From NCBI GenBank assembly GCA_003609755.1, contig AP017991.1, positions 2,745,501 to 2,809,500 of the forward strand: a stretch of 64,000 nt of DNA, read 5' to 3'. Every line of letters begins with the position of its first letter. Positions within the stretch are counted from its first letter, which is position 1. This stretch comes from Planktothrix agardhii NIES-204 (GTDB lineage Bacteria > Cyanobacteriota > Cyanobacteriia > Cyanobacteriales > Microcoleaceae). Of the stretch, positions 1,913 to 14,287 are shown one piece after another. A program made the position numbers and the translations under genes. The notes under the pieces were generated by a model. That model was not told where the DNA came from and ran no database searches. It worked only from the letters and a program-made list of their open reading frames with translations.

Positions 1913-2091
1913 AGCAAAACCTGGTTAGGTGAAAAGTGGATGATTTTAAAAAGGATATATTCCCCTCAAGTTAGTTATAGCATTGATTTTAAAAAAATAA
2001 TTATATCTACCTATATAATTTTGGCATGGAGTCGCATTAATTGTTAAAAACTGTCATAATATAAAAATAGACGTAAAAATTGTTAAACACA

Positions 2092-3600
2092 ATGGCGAGA
2101 GATTTAAGGGGCTTTTTAAAACTGTTAGAAGAACGGGGACAATTAAGAAGGATTAAAACCTTAGTTGATCCTGACTTAGAAATTGCCGAAATTTCTAACC
2201 GAATGTTGCAAGCAGGTGGCCCTGGATTATTGTTCGAAAATGTCAAAGGTTCACCATATCCGGTGGCTGTGAATTTATTGGGGACAGAACAACGGGTTTG
2301 CTGGTCAATGAACATGGAAAACCCCCAAGAGTTAGAGGAATTGGGGAAAAAATTAGGAATGTTACAACAACCTAAACCCCCGAAAAAGATATCCCAAGCG
2401 ATTGATTTTGGCAAGGTTTTATTTGATGTGATTAAAGCCAAGCCCGGGCGCAACTTTTTTCCCCCTTGTCAACAGAATATAATTCAAGGAGATGACGTTG
2501 ATTTAAACCAAATTCCGATGATTCGTCCCTATCCTAAAGATGCGGGAAAAATTATTACTTTGGGATTAGTAATTACGAAAGATTGTGAAACCGGAACACC
2601 AAATGTCGGGGTTTATCGGTTACAATTGCAATCTAAAAATACCATGACCGTCCATTGGTTATCGGTTAGAGGTGGGGCTAGACATTTACGCAAGGCTGCG
2701 GAGAAGGGAAAAAAATTAGAAATTGCGATCGCTTTGGGAGTAGATCCGTTAATTATTATGGCGGCGGCGACTCCGATTCCTGTTGATTTATCGGAATGGT
2801 TATTTGCGGGATTATATGGGGGTTCTGGCGTACAATTAGCCAAGTGTAAAACGGTGGATTTAGAAGTACCTGCGGACTCAGAATTTGTATTAGAAGGAAC
2901 CATTACCCCCGGAGAAATATTACCCGATGGGCCTTTTGGTGATCACATGGGATATTATGGGGGTGTGGAAGATTCTCCTCTAGTTAGATTTAACTGTATT
3001 ACCCATCGTCAAGATCCGATTTATTTAACGACTTTTAGCGGTCGCCCCCCCAAAGAAGAAGCGATGATGGCGATCGCTTTAAACCGGATTTATACCCCGA
3101 TTTTAAGACAGCAAGTATCGGAAATTGTAGACTTTTTCCTACCCATGGAAGCCTTAAGTTATAAAGCCGCTATTATCTCCATTGATAAGGCTTATCCAGG
3201 TCAAGCGAGACGGGCAGCATTAGCATTTTGGAGTGCCTTACCTCAGTTTACTTATACCAAATTTGTGATTGTGGTGGATAAGAGTATTAATATTAGAGAT
3301 CCGCGACAAGTGGTATGGGCAATTAGTTCCAAAGTTGACCCTTCCAGGGATGTTTTTATTCTTCCAGATACGCCTTTTGATACCTTAGATTTTGCTAGTC
3401 AAAAAATCGGATTAGGGGGAAGAATGGGGATAGATGCAACTACAAAAATACCTCCTGAAACCAATCACGAATGGGGAGAACCTTTAGAGTCAGATATTGA
3501 TACAGCCGAAATGGTGACAAAACGTTGGGCAGAATATGGATTAAATGATCTGAATTTAACCGAAGTAGACCCAAATTTATTTGGTTACGATATCAGATAA
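2092..3600 (+). CDS. UbiD family prenylated-FMN-dependent decarboxylase
   Basis: A 502-residue member of the UbiD family, which removes carboxylate groups from aromatic or unsaturated acids using prenylated FMN. It begins MARDLRGFLKLLEERGQLRRI, the usual N terminus, and carries the conserved region EGTITPGEILPDGPFGDHMGYYGG (residues about 266-290), which holds the acidic active-site residues, and further on the segment LPMEALSYKAAIISIDK. Full family length. A TTG at 2080 would add four residues, but the ATG at 2092 matches family N termini. The cofactor-making partner UbiX is encoded 54 kb away at 58088-58666. In quinone-making bacteria UbiD acts on polyprenyl-hydroxybenzoate; the substrate here is not proven by sequence. 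Confidence 0.9.
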   Translation: MARDLRGFLKLLEERGQLRRIKTLVDPDLEIAEISNRMLQAGGPGLLFENVKGSPYPVAVNLLGTEQRVCWSMNMENPQELEELGKKLGMLQQPKPPKKISQAIDFGKVLFDVIKAKPGRNFFPPCQQNIIQGDDVDLNQIPMIRPYPKDAGKIITLGLVITKDCETGTPNVGVYRLQLQSKNTMTVHWLSVRGGARHLRKAAEKGKKLEIAIALGVDPLIIMAAATPIPVDLSEWLFAGLYGGSGVQLAKCKTVDLEVPADSEFVLEGTITPGEILPDGPFGDHMGYYGGVEDSPLVRFNCITHRQDPIYLTTFSGRPPKEEAMMAIALNRIYTPILRQQVSEIVDFFLPMEALSYKAAIISIDKAYPGQARRAALAFWSALPQFTYTKFVIVVDKSINIRDPRQVVWAISSKVDPSRDVFILPDTPFDTLDFASQKIGLGGRMGIDATTKIPPETNHEWGEPLESDIDTAEMVTKRWAEYGLNDLNLTEVDPNLFGYDIR

Positions 3601-3854: not shown

Positions 3855-6800
3855 TTATTGATGGGTTAACTGTTCATAATCTGAACGAAACCATTGCGGT
3901 AAACGAGAAAGATCCTGAATTTGTAATTGTTCAGGGCGACAATATAATAACACCGCCAATAGAGGTTTAATCGTCTCTATTTGATTCAATTCTTGATTCA
4001 TTTGAGACGCTAAGGTTTTAATGAATTGCTGTTCTGTAGTTGTTAAAGTTTCTTGAGAAAACCCACTATATAATAGGGTTCGATAGACTTGACCCACTGA
4101 ACTTTGATAAACAGATTCTAATTGTATGGTTTCCAAACCCAACCAAAAATCAGCAAATTGTCGGCGAATTTGACGTAAATCCTCAACAATAGCAGCATTA
4201 GCCGGATCAATTTTATATAAATTAACACATCCAACTAACCGATTTTTGAATAATTCTGCATCGGTTAACGGTAGATTTTTTGTAACAATTAAAGGCTGTA
4301 CTTTTTCCACAACTAACGGATTTTCAAATACCCGTTGATATTCTTTTAATAACCATTCAGGTAAACGAGTTTTTGCATTAGCAACTACCATTTTTCCTGG
4401 GGGATAATATAACATTAATACCATTAAATGATTTAAAGAATCAGACTGTTTAAGTCCAATCGCCTGTTGAGTAATTTGGTTAACAAATTGTTCTTCTTCT
4501 ACGGTTAATAGTTCCCGTTGAATCCCTCGATTTAAGAGAATTTGATATCCTTTTCCTAAATCTGTTGTATACATTCTTTCTAACTGTTCGGGTAGAACTC
4601 TTAACCAATGTTCCACCATTATTTTCCGAATAGAACGTAACTGATTAATAATTACTTGATTATTGGGTTCTAATTCATAATGATTGATATGAGTCACCAA
4701 ATCCGATAAATACTGTTGGATTGTTTCTCGACTATTGAGTTGAATAGATGACTGTTTGGGTTGGTTTTGTTGCCAAGTTTGGAATAACTGTTGGAAAATT
4801 ATACCCATTTTATTTGAGTAGGTTCGACTATCCAAAAATTCAGGATTCTGCTGAATTTTTTGTTGAATTTCTTGGCGCTTTTGTTGTCTAAGTTGAGGAT
4901 TATTAGCAAGGTTTGTGGCTAGATTAATATAGGATTCTTCACCATTGGCAATTAAGTCATTAATAGAGAGCGATCGCAACAAAGAAGCCGCCATTAATGA
5001 ACGGAATGAACCAATATCTCGGACGACAAAAACCTCTCCCGCTTGGGATGTTGTCGGGGAAAAATTAGGAATAATATCCCCATCTCGGACAACAGGAACT
5101 AAACCCACTTCTAAGGGATCAACTAAAGAATTTACCCCAGAAAAAGGGTAGGAGTCTAAATAAATATCCGCTAACTTCAGATATTCTTTAATATCACTGC
5201 GACTCCCTTGGGGTTTAATCATAATTAAACGACTCGGATCAACACCATATTTAGTTAAAACTTCTTTAAACTTATTAATCCAGGGAATCGCTCTATATTG
5301 AGATGCCCAATTGGGGTTAAATGGATATAAAACCAACACCGAATTAGGAACTTTTGCTAATAGTTTAGCCCAAGTTTCTCGAAGTTCAGGAATAATTTTA
5401 TAGAAATTAGCACCGGAAATAAAAACAACCACCTGTTCAGAAATTCCTAAACTAGAACGAGTTGGAATTACTTGCGGTGGTTCCGGGGGAGTTACATAAT
5501 AACTAAAACAGTGCGCCGTACCTTCTAAAAGAATTAATTTTTCCCGATATTGGGCTTGGGGATTTTGTTTTATTTCTGTTAAAGTTCCTGAAATATAGTA
5601 ATCTATATTCCGCATTCCTGTAGTTACACAGGATGATGTTGATGTGACTTGAATCCGGGCTAAACGATGTAATCCTAATAGCGTTATCCCATGATTAACG
5701 GCTGTTACATTGGTTCCAATTAACAAAATATCTAAATCATCATTACGGATTAATTGCACCTGTTCTGAGACATTTTTAGGCAGTTTTACCAAGCGTTCAA
5801 CCCGACTCTGACAATACTTTTCTAAGGGATGATTATTCGATTGTAGAGCATATAAAATTACCTCAAATTGAGTTGAATCTAAATACTCAAAAACAGGTAA
5901 AGTTGAGTAAGTTTCGGTTTGGGGTAGAAAATGGTTACTGAGAATTCCTAAGCGGATTTTCTGGCGATTTGGACGTTGGGGAAACTGATAATCTAAAGCA
6001 TAACCCAAATGAGTTAGGGCAAATTCCATAATTTCTGCCCGTTTAATATAAATATTTTTGAGATTAGCGGTATTAAAATATAGAGGAATAAAGTTAGCAA
6101 TTTGGGTAAATTTCCAGGCTAATTCTTGCCAAATTGAAAACTCAGGATGACTGGTAAACCGCTCATGAATATAGGTAATCCAATTTTCCAAATAACGATA
6201 ATATAGTTCAGCTTCTCCTAACTCTTGGAAAAACTGAGGGACGGCTAACATAAACTCAAAATAATCAGGTAAAAACCATTTAGGAATCGGAGCTTGAATA
6301 TACCAATTAGCCGATAACTGGTAGGGATAGCTATACAACATAATTGCCAATAAATATTGTATGCTTTTCGGTTGATTGAGTCCCTGTTTTAGATAACTAA
6401 ACCAATCTTGAACTTGAGCTTTTTCTTGAGGTGTTAAGGCTTCATTTTTTATGCCACTATTGAGTAGAATTTTATGGGCTTGACCAATTTCTCCTCCATA
6501 GGTTTTTTCTAAATTCTCTGATTCTAAAGCCGACCAATATTGAGCGACAATCTGCCGAATTTGACGCAGGGAATCGGGGTTATTTGTTTTCTTGTATTCT
6601 TCAGTTAAACGGGAAACTTCGGCCAGAATTTGAGCCGGAGTTAAGGTTTTGATTTGAGCTTTGGGTGATTTTTGAGGACTAAATAACTCAATAATAGCTT
6701 GTTTAATAACATCAGATTGACTACACTTTAATGCTTCTTGAATTTGAGCAATTACGGCCTTAGCATCCCCATTAACTAACAGTTGTTGAGCGGTATTAAT

Positions 6801-9800
6801 AGCATATAACCCATAGTGTTCTCTGGCTTTATTCGATAAATTAATGGCCAAATTTTCGGGTAAATAGGATTGAGAGAGTTCAATAGATTTTAAAGTATCA
6901 GAAATATTAGCCCCAATGCAAATTAACTTAGAACTTTCTGAAGTTGAATGTAAACGATAACAGGCTAAAGGTTGGGGTTCATAAGCCACAGGATAATAAG
7001 CAGAAATTCGTTTCCATATTTCCCAGTCTGCTGCGGAACCTGCATTTTCAGAAAATCCGCCTAATGTTTCATAAACACTGCGTTTAACCACCATAGCAGC
7101 AAATTGAATGCGCTGCATCACAGCAATGCGTTCTAACCAATTATAAATAATCCCATTTGTTTCTTGTTCTAACGCAGAAATGGAGCGTTGTTTTCCCTGT
7201 TCATCAATATAATAATGGCGACAAAATCCAGCCCCGGCGGTGGGTTCTTTTTCTAATAGTTCTCGCATCCGAGTATAAAATCCAGGGAGGACTAAATCAT
7301 CCTGATGTAAAAGATGAATCCATTGTCCTGTAGACCGTTTAATACAATCATTCCAGTTAGGAATTAACCCTAAATTTTGCGGTTGTCGATAGAATTTAAC
7401 TCGATTTTTACCGATATTTTTAACAATAGTTTCAATCTCTGAATTAGTTGAACAATCATCAACTACAATAATTTCCATTTCTTCAGAACTTATGGCTTGA
7501 GTTAAAACACTATTTAACACCTGTTCGATATATTTTTCGCCATTATAGCTAGGAATAATCACCGACCAAAAAGGTCGAGGTTGAGCGGAAAAAACCGGAT
7601 CAATTCGAGGTGCATTAACTTGACTTAGTTTAGATAAATTAATATACATTTGAGCAGGATCAATTTTTTCCATTCCCTCCCCTTTAATTTGAATTTGCTC
7701 ATCACAAGTTTCTATGATTTCTGGTGATAATGTTTTCATAAATTGAAATCGGGTGGCGGGGTCAGCAAATCGGTTCCAAATTCTTAATAAATTAGTTTGT
7801 ACTGTTTGTTTATAGCTTCCTAATTCAACTACAGAGTTCAATAATTCCGTGATTAATTTAATATAAAACGGTAGATGAAACTGTGATAAAACTTGATTAG
7901 CTAAATCACAGGATAAATTATTAACTAAAATTTGATAGTTTTGATCAGTTAGTTGAATTTGAGCATGATTTAAAAATTGAGCTAATTTTTCCCCGGAGGA
8001 GGTATATCTTTTAAAGATTAATATTTCTTCTTCACGACTTAAATCTTGTTGATGACTTAAGGAATTTTCTGATAAATTCAAAGTCCCTAAGATTTCAGGA
8101 ATAAAATTAAATTCGCCCGCATTAGCAATTCTAATATAAAAGTCTTGATCTCCTCGAACTTTTAAGGTTTGATCAAATAATCCATAATTATTATGTAGAG
8201 ATTTTCGCCACATCGGTTGAGAACCAATTTGGGCTGAAAATAATAATTTTAAACGGGAAAATTCCGACCATTTCCAGTGCGGTTTGCCATTTAACTGTTC
8301 TAAATTAACACTTTCTCCGGGTGATACCGCTTGCTGATCGGCGTGTACTAATACGACTTCTGAATGTTGATCTAAATAGTTAGATAACTTTTCTAAAGTG
8401 TTTAATTTGAGACGATCATCGGTATTTTGATTAGTGATATATTCACCCCGAGCGATCGCAATTCCCCTATTCCACGCTTGATAAATCGGTTCTCTTTCTT
8501 CTGTTCTAATATAGATAATTGAGTTAGGATATTGTTTTTTAAACTTAGAAACAATCTCTCGTTCATTTTCCTGGGAACCGGAATCAACAACAATAACTTC
8601 TAATTTTCCTTGTTTAAATAAAGTTTGATTAACTAAATTTTCCAACCTTCCCGACATCATTGATGCGGAATTATAGGTAGAAACAATCGCAGAAACTTTG
8701 ATTTGAGGTTGAGTTAATGCTTGTTGTTTTAATGCTAAAACTTGAGTATCTTCTAATACTATCATAGGGGGAGATAGCTGCTCTGAAGTATATTTACCTT
8801 GCTGAATTAACTGTATTTCCTCTTGAACAATTTGCTTCACTTCTTGATAATATTGCTCTCGATAAATTTTAGAACGTTGGGTATCGTAGGTACGAAATCC
8901 GCCAATTAAACTTCTTAATAAATACAAAGGAGCATAACGAGAAAAGCGTAACCACAGTTCAAAATCCCCCGCTAAATTCAGATTTGTTTGTAATTTTGAT
9001 CCGGCTTTTTCCCAGAGCGATCGCGTCCAAAATGTACTTTCTTGTTGAATCCAGGTATGTTGTAATTGTTGATATTGTTCCACCCATTGTTTATCTAAAA
9101 GCATTTTTCTTGACCATAAAGGTGTCTGCATTTGACTATGAATATGTTTGCCATTTCTATCCCATTCTGTCGGAATTCCCATCACCCATTCCACCTGTTT
9201 ATTGTGCCCAAATGTTGCCGCCAGTTTATAAAAAGCATCGGAATGGTATTTATCATCGGAATTTAACCATCCCATAATTTCACCCGTTGTTTTTTCAAAT
9301 CCTGCATTCACCGCCACATAATGACCGCCATCCGCTTGACTTTGCCAATGGGTTAAATATTTCTGATATTTTTTAATAATTTCAACTGAATTATCCGTAC
9401 TTCCCCCATCCATAATTATGTATTCTAAATTAGGATAATTTTGACTTAAAATCGAATCAATACACTCCTCTAAAAATTCTCCTTGATTTAAAGAAGGGGT
9501 AACAATAGAAATTTTAGGTAAAGCTGAATAAACTAAAATTTCAGGAGATACAGATTTAATATTTGTTGCGGATTTTTGCCAAAGAATATTATAGGAAATT
9601 GGTTGACCAAATTCTTGATAGGATTTTTGGGTTGTGGGTTGCCAAAATTGACGATAAGAGGTTTCTGACATTCCATATAAATCAGGATCAAGTTTAATTT
9701 GATCAAAATCAATCATAGAATTTAAGGTTTTTTGGGTCTTAAATAAATAGGGTAAAAATTGATTTGTCCAAACTTCTGCGGGTTTTACTACCACATCAAA

Positions 9801-12176
9801 ACAATGCAAGGAAAAACCATTGGGTTTTAAAATTCGATCAATATCTTGGGTAATTTGATCAAAATTTGTTTGATTTTCAGAAATATGTTCTAGGGTAGAA
9901 ATACTAAAAACACAATCAAAATATTGATTAGGAAGTTCAGCGTTAAAGTTGCCAATATAATCTAAAACAATACGGGAGTTAGCATAATTTGTAATCTGAT
10001 TAGGGCCATTTCCTACCCCTTCAAATTTATCTAAATTCCAGCATTCATAATCTTGTTTTAATGCTTCTAATACTCTGGAATTCCCCCCACCAATTTCTAA
10101 TAATTTTGAACCTTTGGGTAAATTCTGGGTAATAAAGTTATAGACTAATAAATCTTGATAAATTTTTAGATCGCAAGCATCGGGATTAATATTAATATAG
10201 GCTTTAAACCGTTGAAATTGATTAAAATGACTCCGTTTAGAATAGGTAAAATCTTGAAAATCAAGCGGTTTTTTTTCTGATTTTAAGTTTTGCATAGTTT
10301 TGATTAAGGTATTTTGGATAATTGCAGCCATTTTTGACCAGGAATATTGAGAAGATTGTTGTAAACCTGCTTCAATTAAAGGTTGACGAATTTCGGTTTT
10401 TTGAATTTCTTCTAATGCTTGTAACATTTCTAAAACCTGATCTTCATTAACATAATAAGCCGCTGTTTTGGCAATTTCTGGAATTGAACCTTTTCGACAG
10501 GTAATTACCGGACAACCGCAAGCCATCGCCTCTATAATTGGCATCCCAAACCCTTCATATTTAGAGGGATAAACCAATGCAGTTGCGCCGGAATACGCCT
10601 GTTTTAATTCCTGATCATCCAGTTGCAATAAGTTAATTTTAAACTGTTGCATATAGGGATAAAAATCTGCTTCTAAAGTTGGTTCTCCACCGACACAAAC
10701 AATTTCAAAATCCTGATTATTTTTGAGTTGAGTTAGGGCTTTAAAAAATAATAAAGTATTTTTATAGCCTCCCGCACCCAAACGTTGACCGACTAAAATA
10801 AAATAGGGTTTATTGATGCTATGCTTAAATTTAAACTGTTGAATTTCTCCTGGAGTTGCGGGGGAAAAAACAGCCGGAACACCACAATGGGCGACGGTAA
10901 TTTGATTTTTATTAATATTAGGGAAAAAGTTAACTAAATCTTGGGCTGTGTTTTCAGAAATCGTAATATAGGCGGATGCGTGTTTAATTCCATGATGTTT
11001 TTCTTGCCACATGGGAATAGTTAAATCCAGTCCTAATTGTTCTGGAATCATATCATATCCCATAAAAACCGAAGGTGTTGTTAGGGGAGTTGTATAATAG
11101 GTAGAAATGAACAGATCCGCATTTTCTTGATCACAGATTTTTTGTAATAATTGCCGATCTTCTTCAATTTTATCATAATTATATTCGGGAATTTGATAAT
11201 ATTTAATCCCAGGAATTTTAGGCGTAGTCCCTTCCCTGTCTAAAACAATAATTTGTTGAGCAAAATCTTTTGTAGACCATGCTTCTAGTAAGGATTTCCA
11301 AACCCTCGCAATTCCGGTATTACGAATCTGGAAAAATACACCATCAATAATAATTTTACTAGAATTTTTACCGGAATTAATCTGTTTTCGAGTTGCTACG
11401 GCTTTTAAAAAATCCTGTTCAATTAAGGAAGGGAGAGAATTAGAAGCAGATTCTATAGACACAGCTTTTTTCCATGCTGATCCTGATATTTTTGTTTGGG
11501 TTAATAGATGTAAACTACTCCCATCAGAATATAAGTTTAACTTAAATTTCTCCGCAATTTTTACCAAAGATTGATAGGTATAAATAGAAATATGTTGACC
11601 TTCATGGAGAGCATAATACCACCATTGATCCGGTTGAGGATGATCCGCCGGAAGTAGTTGGGTACTGAATAATAAATTTTTAGAAAACTTTAATAATTTT
11701 TCAATTTCCTCAAGGGGATCAACAAAGTGTTCAAAAACCTCAAAAGCCGTAATTAAATCATAGTTTTCTTGTTGATTTCCTTCAAATCCCTGATAAAATA
11801 TATTTTGACAATATTGATCATATCCATAAAAATCAAACCCAAAATCTCGCATCAATCGCACAAATAAACCATAACCACATCCATAATCTAAAAACTTGCC
11901 TTTGGAATTAAAACATGATATAATTAACTCTTGAGTGATTTGAGAAAATTTAAAATTTCGTGCCACTAATCCCACATCACTCATAGCAATTGGATCAGCA
12001 TAAGCGACCTCTAACCAATAGGGTTTTTCAGTTTGCACAAACCCACAAACCGAACATTTAAAATAATCAACAGTATAGCGATTTAAGACCGTAGCTTGAG
12101 CAAAATAAGGGGATATAGAACCACAAACTTTACAAAGGGAATTTTGGGTAAATTTTGATTGACTTTTAACTTGCAC
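3855..12176 (-). CDS. giant multidomain glycosyltransferase/methyltransferase (2773 aa)
   Basis: One uninterrupted frame. Approximate domains: residues 15-60 a four-cysteine ribbon (CKVCG...CSVCG); 88-230 class I methyltransferase (KFLDYGCGYGLF); 275-620 GT4 glycosyltransferase (EGFGMPIIEAMACGCPVI); 665-800 second methyltransferase (LLEIGGGNSRVLEAL); 888-1110, 1158-1380 and 1535-1770 three GT2 domains (PSLNQGEFLEECI; STYNSASMMS; PSYNGEKYIEQVL) with DxSG/DD-type sites; 2070-2440 an SPINDLY/O-GlcNAc-transferase-like GT41 domain (SYPFSGVNSLVDPLEVGLVPVV). A module of about 105 residues recurs at roughly 1868-1980, 2510-2625 and 2665-2773. There are no signal peptide or membrane segments, so it is cytoplasmic. 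It probably builds and methylates a surface glycan or glycosylates a protein; the product is unknown. The gene stands alone. Confidence 0.88.
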   Translation of the reverse strand: MQVKSQSKFTQNSLCKVCGSISPYFAQATVLNRYTVDYFKCSVCGFVQTEKPYWLEVAYADPIAMSDVGLVARNFKFSQITQELIISCFNSKGKFLDYGCGYGLFVRLMRDFGFDFYGYDQYCQNIFYQGFEGNQQENYDLITAFEVFEHFVDPLEEIEKLLKFSKNLLFSTQLLPADHPQPDQWWYYALHEGQHISIYTYQSLVKIAEKFKLNLYSDGSSLHLLTQTKISGSAWKKAVSIESASNSLPSLIEQDFLKAVATRKQINSGKNSSKIIIDGVFFQIRNTGIARVWKSLLEAWSTKDFAQQIIVLDREGTTPKIPGIKYYQIPEYNYDKIEEDRQLLQKICDQENADLFISTYYTTPLTTPSVFMGYDMIPEQLGLDLTIPMWQEKHHGIKHASAYITISENTAQDLVNFFPNINKNQITVAHCGVPAVFSPATPGEIQQFKFKHSINKPYFILVGQRLGAGGYKNTLLFFKALTQLKNNQDFEIVCVGGEPTLEADFYPYMQQFKINLLQLDDQELKQAYSGATALVYPSKYEGFGMPIIEAMACGCPVITCRKGSIPEIAKTAAYYVNEDQVLEMLQALEEIQKTEIRQPLIEAGLQQSSQYSWSKMAAIIQNTLIKTMQNLKSEKKPLDFQDFTYSKRSHFNQFQRFKAYININPDACDLKIYQDLLVYNFITQNLPKGSKLLEIGGGNSRVLEALKQDYECWNLDKFEGVGNGPNQITNYANSRIVLDYIGNFNAELPNQYFDCVFSISTLEHISENQTNFDQITQDIDRILKPNGFSLHCFDVVVKPAEVWTNQFLPYLFKTQKTLNSMIDFDQIKLDPDLYGMSETSYRQFWQPTTQKSYQEFGQPISYNILWQKSATNIKSVSPEILVYSALPKISIVTPSLNQGEFLEECIDSILSQNYPNLEYIIMDGGSTDNSVEIIKKYQKYLTHWQSQADGGHYVAVNAGFEKTTGEIMGWLNSDDKYHSDAFYKLAATFGHNKQVEWVMGIPTEWDRNGKHIHSQMQTPLWSRKMLLDKQWVEQYQQLQHTWIQQESTFWTRSLWEKAGSKLQTNLNLAGDFELWLRFSRYAPLYLLRSLIGGFRTYDTQRSKIYREQYYQEVKQIVQEEIQLIQQGKYTSEQLSPPMIVLEDTQVLALKQQALTQPQIKVSAIVSTYNSASMMSGRLENLVNQTLFKQGKLEVIVVDSGSQENEREIVSKFKKQYPNSIIYIRTEEREPIYQAWNRGIAIARGEYITNQNTDDRLKLNTLEKLSNYLDQHSEVVLVHADQQAVSPGESVNLEQLNGKPHWKWSEFSRLKLLFSAQIGSQPMWRKSLHNNYGLFDQTLKVRGDQDFYIRIANAGEFNFIPEILGTLNLSENSLSHQQDLSREEEILIFKRYTSSGEKLAQFLNHAQIQLTDQNYQILVNNLSCDLANQVLSQFHLPFYIKLITELLNSVVELGSYKQTVQTNLLRIWNRFADPATRFQFMKTLSPEIIETCDEQIQIKGEGMEKIDPAQMYINLSKLSQVNAPRIDPVFSAQPRPFWSVIIPSYNGEKYIEQVLNSVLTQAISSEEMEIIVVDDCSTNSEIETIVKNIGKNRVKFYRQPQNLGLIPNWNDCIKRSTGQWIHLLHQDDLVLPGFYTRMRELLEKEPTAGAGFCRHYYIDEQGKQRSISALEQETNGIIYNWLERIAVMQRIQFAAMVVKRSVYETLGGFSENAGSAADWEIWKRISAYYPVAYEPQPLACYRLHSTSESSKLICIGANISDTLKSIELSQSYLPENLAINLSNKAREHYGLYAINTAQQLLVNGDAKAVIAQIQEALKCSQSDVIKQAIIELFSPQKSPKAQIKTLTPAQILAEVSRLTEEYKKTNNPDSLRQIRQIVAQYWSALESENLEKTYGGEIGQAHKILLNSGIKNEALTPQEKAQVQDWFSYLKQGLNQPKSIQYLLAIMLYSYPYQLSANWYIQAPIPKWFLPDYFEFMLAVPQFFQELGEAELYYRYLENWITYIHERFTSHPEFSIWQELAWKFTQIANFIPLYFNTANLKNIYIKRAEIMEFALTHLGYALDYQFPQRPNRQKIRLGILSNHFLPQTETYSTLPVFEYLDSTQFEVILYALQSNNHPLEKYCQSRVERLVKLPKNVSEQVQLIRNDDLDILLIGTNVTAVNHGITLLGLHRLARIQVTSTSSCVTTGMRNIDYYISGTLTEIKQNPQAQYREKLILLEGTAHCFSYYVTPPEPPQVIPTRSSLGISEQVVVFISGANFYKIIPELRETWAKLLAKVPNSVLVLYPFNPNWASQYRAIPWINKFKEVLTKYGVDPSRLIMIKPQGSRSDIKEYLKLADIYLDSYPFSGVNSLVDPLEVGLVPVVRDGDIIPNFSPTTSQAGEVFVVRDIGSFRSLMAASLLRSLSINDLIANGEESYINLATNLANNPQLRQQKRQEIQQKIQQNPEFLDSRTYSNKMGIIFQQLFQTWQQNQPKQSSIQLNSRETIQQYLSDLVTHINHYELEPNNQVIINQLRSIRKIMVEHWLRVLPEQLERMYTTDLGKGYQILLNRGIQRELLTVEEEQFVNQITQQAIGLKQSDSLNHLMVLMLYYPPGKMVVANAKTRLPEWLLKEYQRVFENPLVVEKVQPLIVTKNLPLTDAELFKNRLVGCVNLYKIDPANAAIVEDLRQIRRQFADFWLGLETIQLESVYQSSVGQVYRTLLYSGFSQETLTTTEQQFIKTLASQMNQELNQIETIKPLLAVLLYCRPEQLQIQDLSRLPQWFRSDYEQLTHQ

Positions 12177-12448: not shown

Positions 12449-14287
12449 GTGAATAAACGCTGGAGAAATGTGGGGTTATACGCCCTGCTTGCCATTGTAG
12501 TCTTAGCATTAGCAACTGCCTTTTTTGATAAACAGCCCCAAACCCGGGAAAGCTGGAAGTATAGTACCTTTATTCAAGAAGTCAAGAGTAATAAAGTTGA
12601 ACGGGTCAGTCTCAGTTCCGATCGCTCCAGAGCCCTAGTCACGGCCCAGGATGGGAATAAAGTTATTGTTAACCTTCCTAACGATCCGGCTCTGATCGAT
12701 ATTCTGACCGAAAATAACGTTGATATTTCAGTTTTACCCCAAAACGATGAAAGCTTCTGGTTCAAAGCCCTGAGCAGTCTGTTCTTCCCGGTTTTACTAT
12801 TAGTTGGCCTATTTTTCTTACTCCGTCGCGCTCAGAATGGCCCAGGTAGCCAAGCCATGAACTTTGGCAAGTCTAAAGCTAGAGTCCAGATGGAACCCCA
12901 AACCCAAGTCACCTTCGGGGATGTAGCAGGTATCGAGCAAGCTAAACTCGAACTTAGCGAAGTCGTGGACTTCCTGAAAAATTCTGATCGCTTTACGGCT
13001 GTTGGGGCAAAAATTCCTAAAGGGGTGTTATTAGTTGGCCCCCCAGGGACAGGTAAAACCCTATTAGCCAAAGCCGTCGCCGGAGAAGCGGGCGTTCCCT
13101 TCTTCAGTATTTCCGGTTCGGAATTTGTAGAAATGTTCGTCGGTGTGGGTGCGTCCCGGGTGCGTGACCTGTTTGAACAGGCGAAAACCAATGCTCCCTG
13201 TATCGTATTTATTGATGAAATTGACGCCGTAGGTCGTCAACGGGGTGCAGGTTTAGGCGGCGGAAATGATGAACGGGAACAAACCCTAAACCAGTTATTA
13301 ACCGAAATGGACGGGTTTGAAGGCAATAACGGAATTATTATTATTGCCGCGACTAACCGTCCCGACGTCCTCGACTCCGCCTTAATGCGTCCGGGTCGTT
13401 TTGACCGCCAAGTGGTGGTTGACCGTCCCGACTATAACGGCCGTTCAGAAATTCTGCGAGTTCACGCCCGGGGCAAAACCTTGGCTAAAGATGTGGACTT
13501 GGATAAAATTGCCCGTCGTACCCCTGGGTTTACCGGGGCGGACTTATCCAACCTGTTAAACGAAGCCGCTATTTTAGCCGCCCGTCGTAACTTGACGGAA
13601 ATTTCCATGGATGAAGTCAATGATGCCATTGACCGGGTGTTAGCTGGCCCTGAGAAGAAAGATCGGGTGATGAGCGAAAAACGCAAAACCCTAGTCGCCT
13701 ACCATGAAGCCGGACACGCCTTAGTAGGGGCCTTAATGCCCGACTATGACCCCGTACAGAAAATTAGTATTATTCCTCGCGGTCGAGCCGGGGGGTTAAC
13801 CTGGTTTATGCCCAGCGAAGAACGGATGGACTCCGGTTTGTTCAGCCGCTCCTATTTGGAAAATCAAATGGCCGTGGCTTTGGGTGGCCGGGTCGCCGAA
13901 GAAATTATCTTTGGAGAGGAAGAAGTCACCACCGGAGCGTCTAATGACTTACAACAGGTGACTCGGGTGGCTCGTCAAATGATTACCCGTTATGGGATGA
14001 GCGATCGCCTTGGCCCGGTGGCTTTAGGTCGTCAACAGGGGAATGTGTTCCTGGGCCGGGATATTATGTCGGAACGGGATTTCTCCGAAGAAACCGCCTC
14101 AACTATTGATGCCGAAGTCCGTATATTGGTGGATGCCGCCTATAAACGGGCAAAACAAGTATTAGTAGAAAACCGCCATGTTTTAAATCAATTAGCCGAT
14201 GTTTTAATTGATAAAGAAACGGTGGATGCTGATGAATTGCAAGAACTGTTAGCCAATAATGAAGTCAAAATGGCGTCAGTTGTTTAA
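12449..14287 (+). CDS. ftsH: ATP-dependent zinc metalloprotease FtsH
   Basis: A 612-residue thylakoid or plasma membrane protease that extracts and degrades damaged membrane proteins, in cyanobacteria notably photosystem II D1. Two membrane helices (residues about 8-26 and 110-130) flank a short lumenal/periplasmic part. The AAA+ ATPase follows with Walker A GPPGTGKT (about residue 197), Walker B IVFIDEID, and the second region of homology ending MRPGRFDRQ. The zinc site HEAGH is near residue 417. Full length for the family. Start is GTG with a strong ribosome binding site. Cyanobacteria have four paralogues; the N terminus [14 protein letters not shown] suggests the FtsH2/FtsH3 group, which I cannot separate further. 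A strong terminator follows. Confidence 0.97.

Follow-up and report, generated by a model that had tools for sequence, protein, structure and literature searches.

Results

The window analysed here is a 64,000-nucleotide stretch of DNA from the filamentous freshwater cyanobacterium Planktothrix agardhii NIES-204, in which positions 3855-12176 of the minus strand form a single open frame of 2773 amino acids with a GTG start; the plus-strand reading of the same positions is full of stops. Seven catalytic modules and the copies of a helical domain, here called R, account for 2545 of the 2773 residues, with module borders set by hand from Pfam, NCBIfam and PDB sequence searches. The 19-residue hydropathy mean of the protein has a maximum of 1.41, so a membrane span is not expected and the chain is probably soluble. 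Two plus-strand genes outside the enzyme flank the frame: ftsH (12449-14287), the conserved flank of a variable locus, and a ubiD-family gene (2080-3600) on the other side. ftsH lies within 440 bp in nine of ten Planktothrix genomes, the exception being the cut contig of G005, and ubiD is found in eight of the ten stretches, two of them with further ORFs in between; G002, which has a full-length orthologue, has no ubiD in view. Scans of six neighbouring genes returned FtsH, the UbiD family, PgeF, a peptide/nickel-type ABC permease, a DNA-methyltransferase fragment and one gene with no match. These six include no Wzm/Wzt-type exporter or initiating transferase, in agreement with an earlier note on this DNA, which had remarked that no polymer exporter is adjacent. 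Furthermore, no metabolite synthesis gene was present among the scanned neighbours in the window and its relatives.

All modules are read from the minus strand. The N-terminal module, MT1 (residues 1-268; 11373-12176), consists of a CxxC...CxxC ribbon and a Methyltransf_23 match, and is the part replaced in G001, a genome of the same species; its two CxxC pairs (C15, C18, C41 and C44) do not vary across all 17 aligned sequences. GT4 (residues 269-635; 10272-11372) contains an E541...E549 motif and matches the Pfam families Glyco_transf_4 (288-433) and Glycos_transf_1 (447-593). It is followed by MT2 (residues 638-880; 9537-10265), a Methyltransf_11/23 module with Methyltransf_11 at 693-788, which brings the Methyltransf_23 stretches in the protein to two. 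Three stretches match Glycos_transf_2, and Pfam and motifs identify them as GT2a (residues 881-1148; 8733-9536), GT2b (1149-1400; 7977-8732) and GT2c (1511-1800; 6777-7646). A linker and GT41-like domain (residues 1985-2470; 4767-6224), recognised by Pfam, by a PDB sequence match and by K2260, is preceded by the first R copy, R1 (about 1849-1975; 6252-6632), and followed by R2 (about 2490-2615; 4332-4709) and R3 (about 2644-2769; 3870-4247). Among the 25 NCBIfam models listed, only the glycosyltransferase domain model TIGR04440 passed its cut-off (81.3 versus 70 bits). Each catalytic module shows the motif expected of it: SAM motif I in the methyltransferases, E-x7-E in GT4, aspartates in the GT2 modules and the lysine in GT41. 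Across an alignment of seven Planktothrix proteins the key positions of these motifs hold, with slight variation in adjacent residues; G001 departs from this, its first module being another kind of methyltransferase. The domain searches over the whole frame therefore confirm what the earlier note had read from the letters, a single chain with two methyltransferases and five glycosyltransferase domains (one GT4, three GT2 and one GT41-like), and a methyltransferase with at least two glycosyltransferase modules in one chain is the arrangement of WsaE-type enzymes. The active-site motifs kept in relatives are consistent with that note's idea of single-chain assembly of a methylated glycan; it overlooked the R domains and the module exchange.

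The best match to Glyco_transf_41 lies at residues 2236-2457 (64.4 bits, cut-off 25), which places the domain in GT41, and residues 2070-2368 match Arabidopsis SPINDLY in a PDB sequence search (E 3.3e-17). K2260 aligns with the catalytic lysine (SPINDLY K665, OGT K842) and is invariant in 25 of 25 sequences of an alignment that includes the window protein and its close relatives, as are R2240, R2316, D2341, G2347 and S2350; E2088 and T2089 are each kept in 24. The acceptor-side histidine (OGT H558, SPINDLY H495) is replaced by Q2086 and occurs in one of the 25, the OGT His-Thr-Thr stretch is not kept, and the position of human OGT Cys917 and SPINDLY Tyr744 is occupied by Phe in the window protein (Tyr in 20 and Phe in 5 of the 25). 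No TPR family was found in the window protein up to an E value of 0.1 in Pfam, R1 occupying that place. According to the excerpts of PMC9715652, SPINDLY K665 is essential, and a bulky residue at the Cys917 place goes with the use of other donors or with little or no GlcNAc transfer; human OGT Cys917 is described in parts of PMC9715652 and PMC4683255 as belonging to the pocket for the N-acetyl group. The invariant lysine together with the bulky Tyr or Phe at the Cys917 place indicates that the domain is most likely an active GT41 that uses a non-GlcNAc donor. O-GlcNAc specificity is not favoured because of that Tyr or Phe and the lack of TPRs, and, judged by sequence, the protein is not classed as an OGT since both the TPRs and the acceptor-side histidine are missing. 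Of the "O-GlcNAc-like domain" proposed earlier, the GT41 assignment thus stands, but the likeness to OGT fails at the TPRs, at His495/His558 (Gln) and at Cys917 (Phe).

R is a helical domain of about 122 residues, and its three copies in the window protein are mutually 32-39% identical; R3 is predicted to be a seven-helix domain (mean pLDDT 88). Of the 25 proteins aligned over the GT41-like core, 24 contain R domains; the one without, from G050, lies outside the host family. When 34 R members were compared with Pfam, the best match was TraO (6e-4) in one member, and no family was matched by more than two members; against PDB sequences the best E value was 0.18, with nothing convincing. Fold comparison did not show a clear relative, and a missing match there proves nothing. 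R is also found in other settings: ORFs of 864-869 aa with the order GT2-GT2-R and without a GT41 match lie at L101:98-2692 and L128:3376-5985, and ORFs with three R copies, in which the module search gave no transferase, lie at L118:3807-5468 and L125:6926-9523.

All ten Planktothrix genomes, the window's own counted in, match the window protein. Full-length orthologues of 2772-2797 aa (80-91% identical) are encoded in five of the nine other genomes; of the remaining four, G005 is cut by a contig end, and G001, G006 and G009 have other fronts. The ratio omega (dN/dS) was 0.09-0.34 in 60 of 60 comparisons (five full-length orthologues by 12 segments), and 0.09-0.14 in the GT41-like domain. Judged by these ratios, purifying selection acts on every module of the window protein, and synonymous divergence is of about the same order as that of ftsH/ubiD in the four of five orthologues whose flanks were compared. 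The unusual length and the mixture of fold classes would suit an assembly or frame artefact that fuses separate genes; however, five other genomes have the same junctions in genes under purifying selection, and giant ORFs of comparable size occur across the host family, so that such an artefact is effectively ruled out. The earlier note had regarded frame errors joining separate genes, or homologues that are always split, as grounds against its reading; the former is contradicted by the full-length orthologues and their omega values, and the latter is not the case, giant fused ORFs being common in relatives.

The same-species allele of G001 encodes 3267 aa and is 94% identical to the window protein from residue 272 onward. 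Its front, for which no match to window residues 1-271 was reported, carries an FkbM methyltransferase module, and nucleotide identity between the two alleles, followed in 10-codon steps, jumps from 0.30-0.47 to 0.83-1.00 near residue 270. The G006 and G009 alleles have GT4-MT24-TylF-GT4-GT2 ahead of the C-terminal R-GT41-R platform and keep only residues 274-629 and about 1403/1443-2773 of the window protein. Between the window and G001, synonymous divergence is 0.16-0.31 in the GT4, MT2, GT2 and R1 modules and falls to 0.03-0.07 in GT41-R2-R3 (window 3870-6224), which suggests that the 3' ends of these two alleles recently recombined.

The GT41-like core is encoded in 60 of 61 host-family genomes (E 1e-60). 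One locus per genome was examined in 55 of the 60 positives (G306, G319, G337, G346 and G349 were left out), and the larger ORF was preferred where a genome had two; 52 of the 55 ORFs are uncut, with lengths of 1426-3498 aa. The R-GT41-R platform is conserved, and the glycosyl- and methyltransferase modules ahead of it differ among the 55 loci. BLAST with the modules of three reference proteins gave 19 module strings, 17 when only the part before the platform was counted; because GT2 labels are interchangeable and fronts without a match were left blank, these 19 strings, and the 23 changes given below, are rough, and further modules missed by BLAST were found by Pfam. The GT41 core was used for one quick platform tree, in which 14 of 52 branches are open. 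Placed on this tree, the 17 front strings require a minimum of 23 changes, against a floor of 16 and a shuffled mean of 39.8. By this rough count, fronts are often replaced but also in part passed down by descent, and they are not freely shuffled.

Ten pairs, picked from the quick tree mostly for their differing strings, were compared, and six, the window/G001 pair described above among them, share the rear and differ in front. In G042 and G326 the last 1634 residues are 94% identical with no match reported in front; G332 and G335 are 91% identical over 1592 residues and differ in their fronts, and the same arrangement of common rear and different fronts is seen in G100/G316 (79%) and G347/G348 (79%). 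G313 and G314 are 93% identical over 911 residues, and their fronts share one GT2 module (73%) at a different position. The front is simply missing from the shorter ORF in G327/G339, G336/G318 and G324/G318 (79-85%), and G117 and G317 are 87% identical along their entire length. The content of the chain ranges widely: the G341 allele (3498 aa) carries GT4, four methyltransferases, three GT2 and GT41, and seven host-family ORFs of 1426-1435 aa have, by the module search, GT4 and the platform alone. Six of these seven have ftsH in view, with two more ORFs in between. As far as module content tells, a full assembly line within one chain is not general in the host family.

ftsH was present in the fetched stretch for 43 of the 55 loci (within 700 bp in 19, within 2300 bp in 28 and within 6.1 kb in 43), and several of the 12 stretches without ftsH in view are short at contig ends. 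The gap to ftsH exceeds 1.5 kb at 24 loci, and at 23 of them the intervening ORFs (at least 200 aa) are co-oriented with the main ORF, the sole exception being an IS605-type OrfB. Pfam families in ten of these intervening ORFs included Methyltransf_13/14 and RMNT_CmcI (by their Pfam names a C-methyltransferase type and a rhamnosyl O-methyltransferase type, respectively), the GDP-mannose 4,6-dehydratase family, GT4 and TPR-FkbM. The linked RMNT_CmcI, Methyltransf_13/14 and GDP-mannose 4,6-dehydratase genes point to methylated deoxysugars, which supports the view that the methyltransferase modules may act on sugars, methylated deoxysugars among them. At the ftsH locus, a conserved site and flank is thus combined with exchangeable transferases, as at a variable glycan locus. 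Outside the genus, an order-wide sample of 148 genomes that includes the host family had 41 with a best E value of at most 1e-45 for the C-terminal query; the weaker matches among those listed mostly showed 24-31% identity in the GT41 part, and a few hit the last R only. As a look at phage carriage, IMG/VR was scanned once with the GT41-core alignment; no relative was present among the 29 pattern matches.

Varied transferase fusions also occupy another locus in Planktothrix, next to genes of the TPR-GT41 type: MT1-GT4 in three genomes, FkbM-G1x-GT4 in one and GT2-GT4 in one. In G003, whose flank is just 52-58% alike, the GT4 fusion there has 835 aa and, ahead of GT4, a weak match to a methyltransferase. 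Recent copying between the ftsH locus and this locus was not seen, the GT4 modules being about 56-58% identical and lying on separate tree branches. The second site in the window's own genome (L102, C1:4113000-4132500) has two ORFs, one of 1157 aa that ends in TylF and one of 754 aa, and other Planktothrix carry different fusions there. Elsewhere in the same genome, L100:3517-9786 is a 2089-aa ORF outside the platform family, in which two stretches resemble GT2 and the end resembles GT4. ORFs of 524-527 aa lie directly downstream of the MT1-GT4 fusion at L052:6117-7700, where no Pfam match was found, and at L054:2178-3752. Beside a 1977-aa glycosyltransferase fusion, L055:10137-11681 begins with a sulfotransferase-like N-terminus followed by what appear by eye to be TPR-like repeats. 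A 1107-aa Dolichospermum ORF (L015:17588-20911) has an MT1-GT4 relative (55%) behind another glycosyltransferase-like front, without the platform, and in planctomycetes (L017-L021) relatives of GT4 and of the Cys-ribbon methyltransferase are separate adjacent genes in reversed order.

Discussion

The reading we prefer, with a probability of roughly 0.55, is that the window protein is the FtsH-linked allele of a family-wide soluble enzyme that assembles a methylated, strain-variable glycan, presumably on a protein. In the window strain the front would supply, in order, MT, GT4, MT, GT2, GT2 and GT2; the soluble chain would assemble a short, methylated oligosaccharide on a single acceptor, with every module contributing or capping one sugar, and the platform would hold the common acceptor and transfer either the first sugar or the finished glycan. 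By analogy with the GT41 enzymes characterised so far, the acceptor would most likely be a protein that is modified in the cytoplasm. A swap of front modules would then change the glycan and leave the acceptor step as it is. We infer the order of action, the donors, the acceptor and any surface role of the enzyme; transfer to protein could be wrong, because the acceptor-side residues differ from those of OGT and SPINDLY and TPRs are absent. Nothing in the present results points to the gas-vesicle, sheath or surface-layer acceptors raised in the earlier note. The short host-family ORFs that combine GT4 alone with the platform, and the partial inheritance of front content, with G117/G317 alike throughout, also count against this reading. 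A farther-reaching version, which we put forward tentatively and with the odds against it, is that R-GT41-R is a near-universal platform for protein glycosylation across this family of filamentous cyanobacteria, that in-frame module exchange yields serotype-like glycan variation driven by phages, grazers or chytrid parasites, and that R is a new acceptor-recognition module replacing TPRs.

Other readings share much of this evidence. The protein may instead work like WsaE/WbdA on a polysaccharide that is exported as capsule, O-chain or slime, building the repeat on a lipid carrier and adding methyl caps, with the exporter encoded elsewhere. Several GT2 modules and methyl caps fit such a product, although the six scanned neighbours contain no exporter or initiating transferase of the Wzm/Wzt kind, and what is conserved in the ORF is its GT41-like platform at the C-terminus. 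To our knowledge, GT41 is not a component of such systems. PMC2943079 describes WsaE as a methyltransferase with two rhamnosyltransferases, and enzymes of this sort are placed in O-polysaccharide systems there and in the excerpt of PMC11231755; overall we consider this reading possible but doubtful.

Two further readings are less probable again. Glycosylation and methylation of a small molecule or lipid, such as a carotenoid glycoside or a peptide metabolite, with strain-specific sugars would be in keeping with the TylF/macrocin-O-methyltransferase- and RMNT_CmcI-type enzymes in fronts and linked genes, which are known from small-molecule glycosides. Cyanobacterial carotenoids bear methylated sugars. 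However, the CruG carotenoid-transferase model scored 59.7 bits against a cut-off of 600, the scanned neighbours lack a metabolite synthesis gene, and five transferases seem more than such a product would need, which makes this reading improbable. It is equally hard to maintain that the GT41-like domain is enzymatically dead and R-GT41-R a mere scaffold for the front enzymes: the loss of the acceptor-side histidine and of the His-Thr-Thr stretch, and the conservation of the platform while the front changes, could be read in that way, but the catalytic lysine, Arg2240, Arg2316, Asp2341, Gly2347 and Ser2350 show no variation in the 25 aligned sequences, and the low omega of the domain in the five full-length Planktothrix orthologues (0.09-0.14) also argues against it.

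If the assembly of a strain-variable glycan by one enzyme is correct, one recombination event would explain differences in sugar decoration among strains of one species, and the exchange of front domains looks like a one-gene route to altered cell sugar decoration. One gene would then serve as a marker of glycan type, an undescribed domain (R) would be added to a GT41 branch, natural junctions could be used for chimeric glycan assembly enzymes, and the role of cyanobacterial GT41 enzymes would become testable on a single gene.

Among the literature matches listed, neither the gene nor the fusion family is described in titles or the beginnings of abstracts, and neither the R-GT41-R platform nor in-frame block exchange had a precedent among them; in the excerpt of PMC9398003 glycosyltransferases go unmentioned, and lipid glycosylation appears as a single GO term. 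A cyanobacterial case is the OGT of Synechococcus elongatus PCC 7942, a GT41-type gene with a knock-out phenotype that is cited in PMC12206446 and PMC4683255 as a single OGT homologue. SPINDLY of Arabidopsis, human OGT, XcOGT and TtOGT resemble the window protein in the GT41 domain, by Pfam and PDB sequence, and in the catalytic lysine. Unlike this group, the window protein has R domains instead of TPRs, has lost the acceptor-side histidine and carries extra fused transferases. The Tyr or Phe at the Cys917 place differs from OGT and resembles SPINDLY and XcOGT, and the cytoplasmic N-glucosyltransferases HMW1C/NGT also have a bulky residue there, according to the excerpts of PMC9715652. HMW1C/NGT are GT41 relatives with profile matches of 9e-13 to 1e-10; however, the match spans just about 86 C-terminal positions, and the window chain is multi-module.

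WsaE of the Geobacillus S-layer glycan and ORF6 of the Klebsiella pneumoniae O7 cluster combine a methyltransferase and two glycosyltransferases in one chain, but they have three catalytic modules against seven in the window protein and sit in exporter-bearing clusters, and a GT41/R platform does not appear in the excerpts describing them (PMC2943079, PMC11231755). The chlorovirus proteins A064R and A111/114R likewise bring several glycosyltransferase modules to one capsid-protein glycan, with a methyltransferase in A064R; these enzymes are viral and have three domains, and the excerpt of PMC7826918 describes no GT41/R platform in them. Multi-domain glycosyltransferases are thus already known, and a constant platform with block-replaced modules across a whole family would constitute a natural combinatorial system. 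O-antigen and capsule loci combine a conserved flank with interchangeable glycosyltransferases; in the window family, by contrast, alleles differ within a single reading frame, in which the variable modules are joined to a platform that stays constant.
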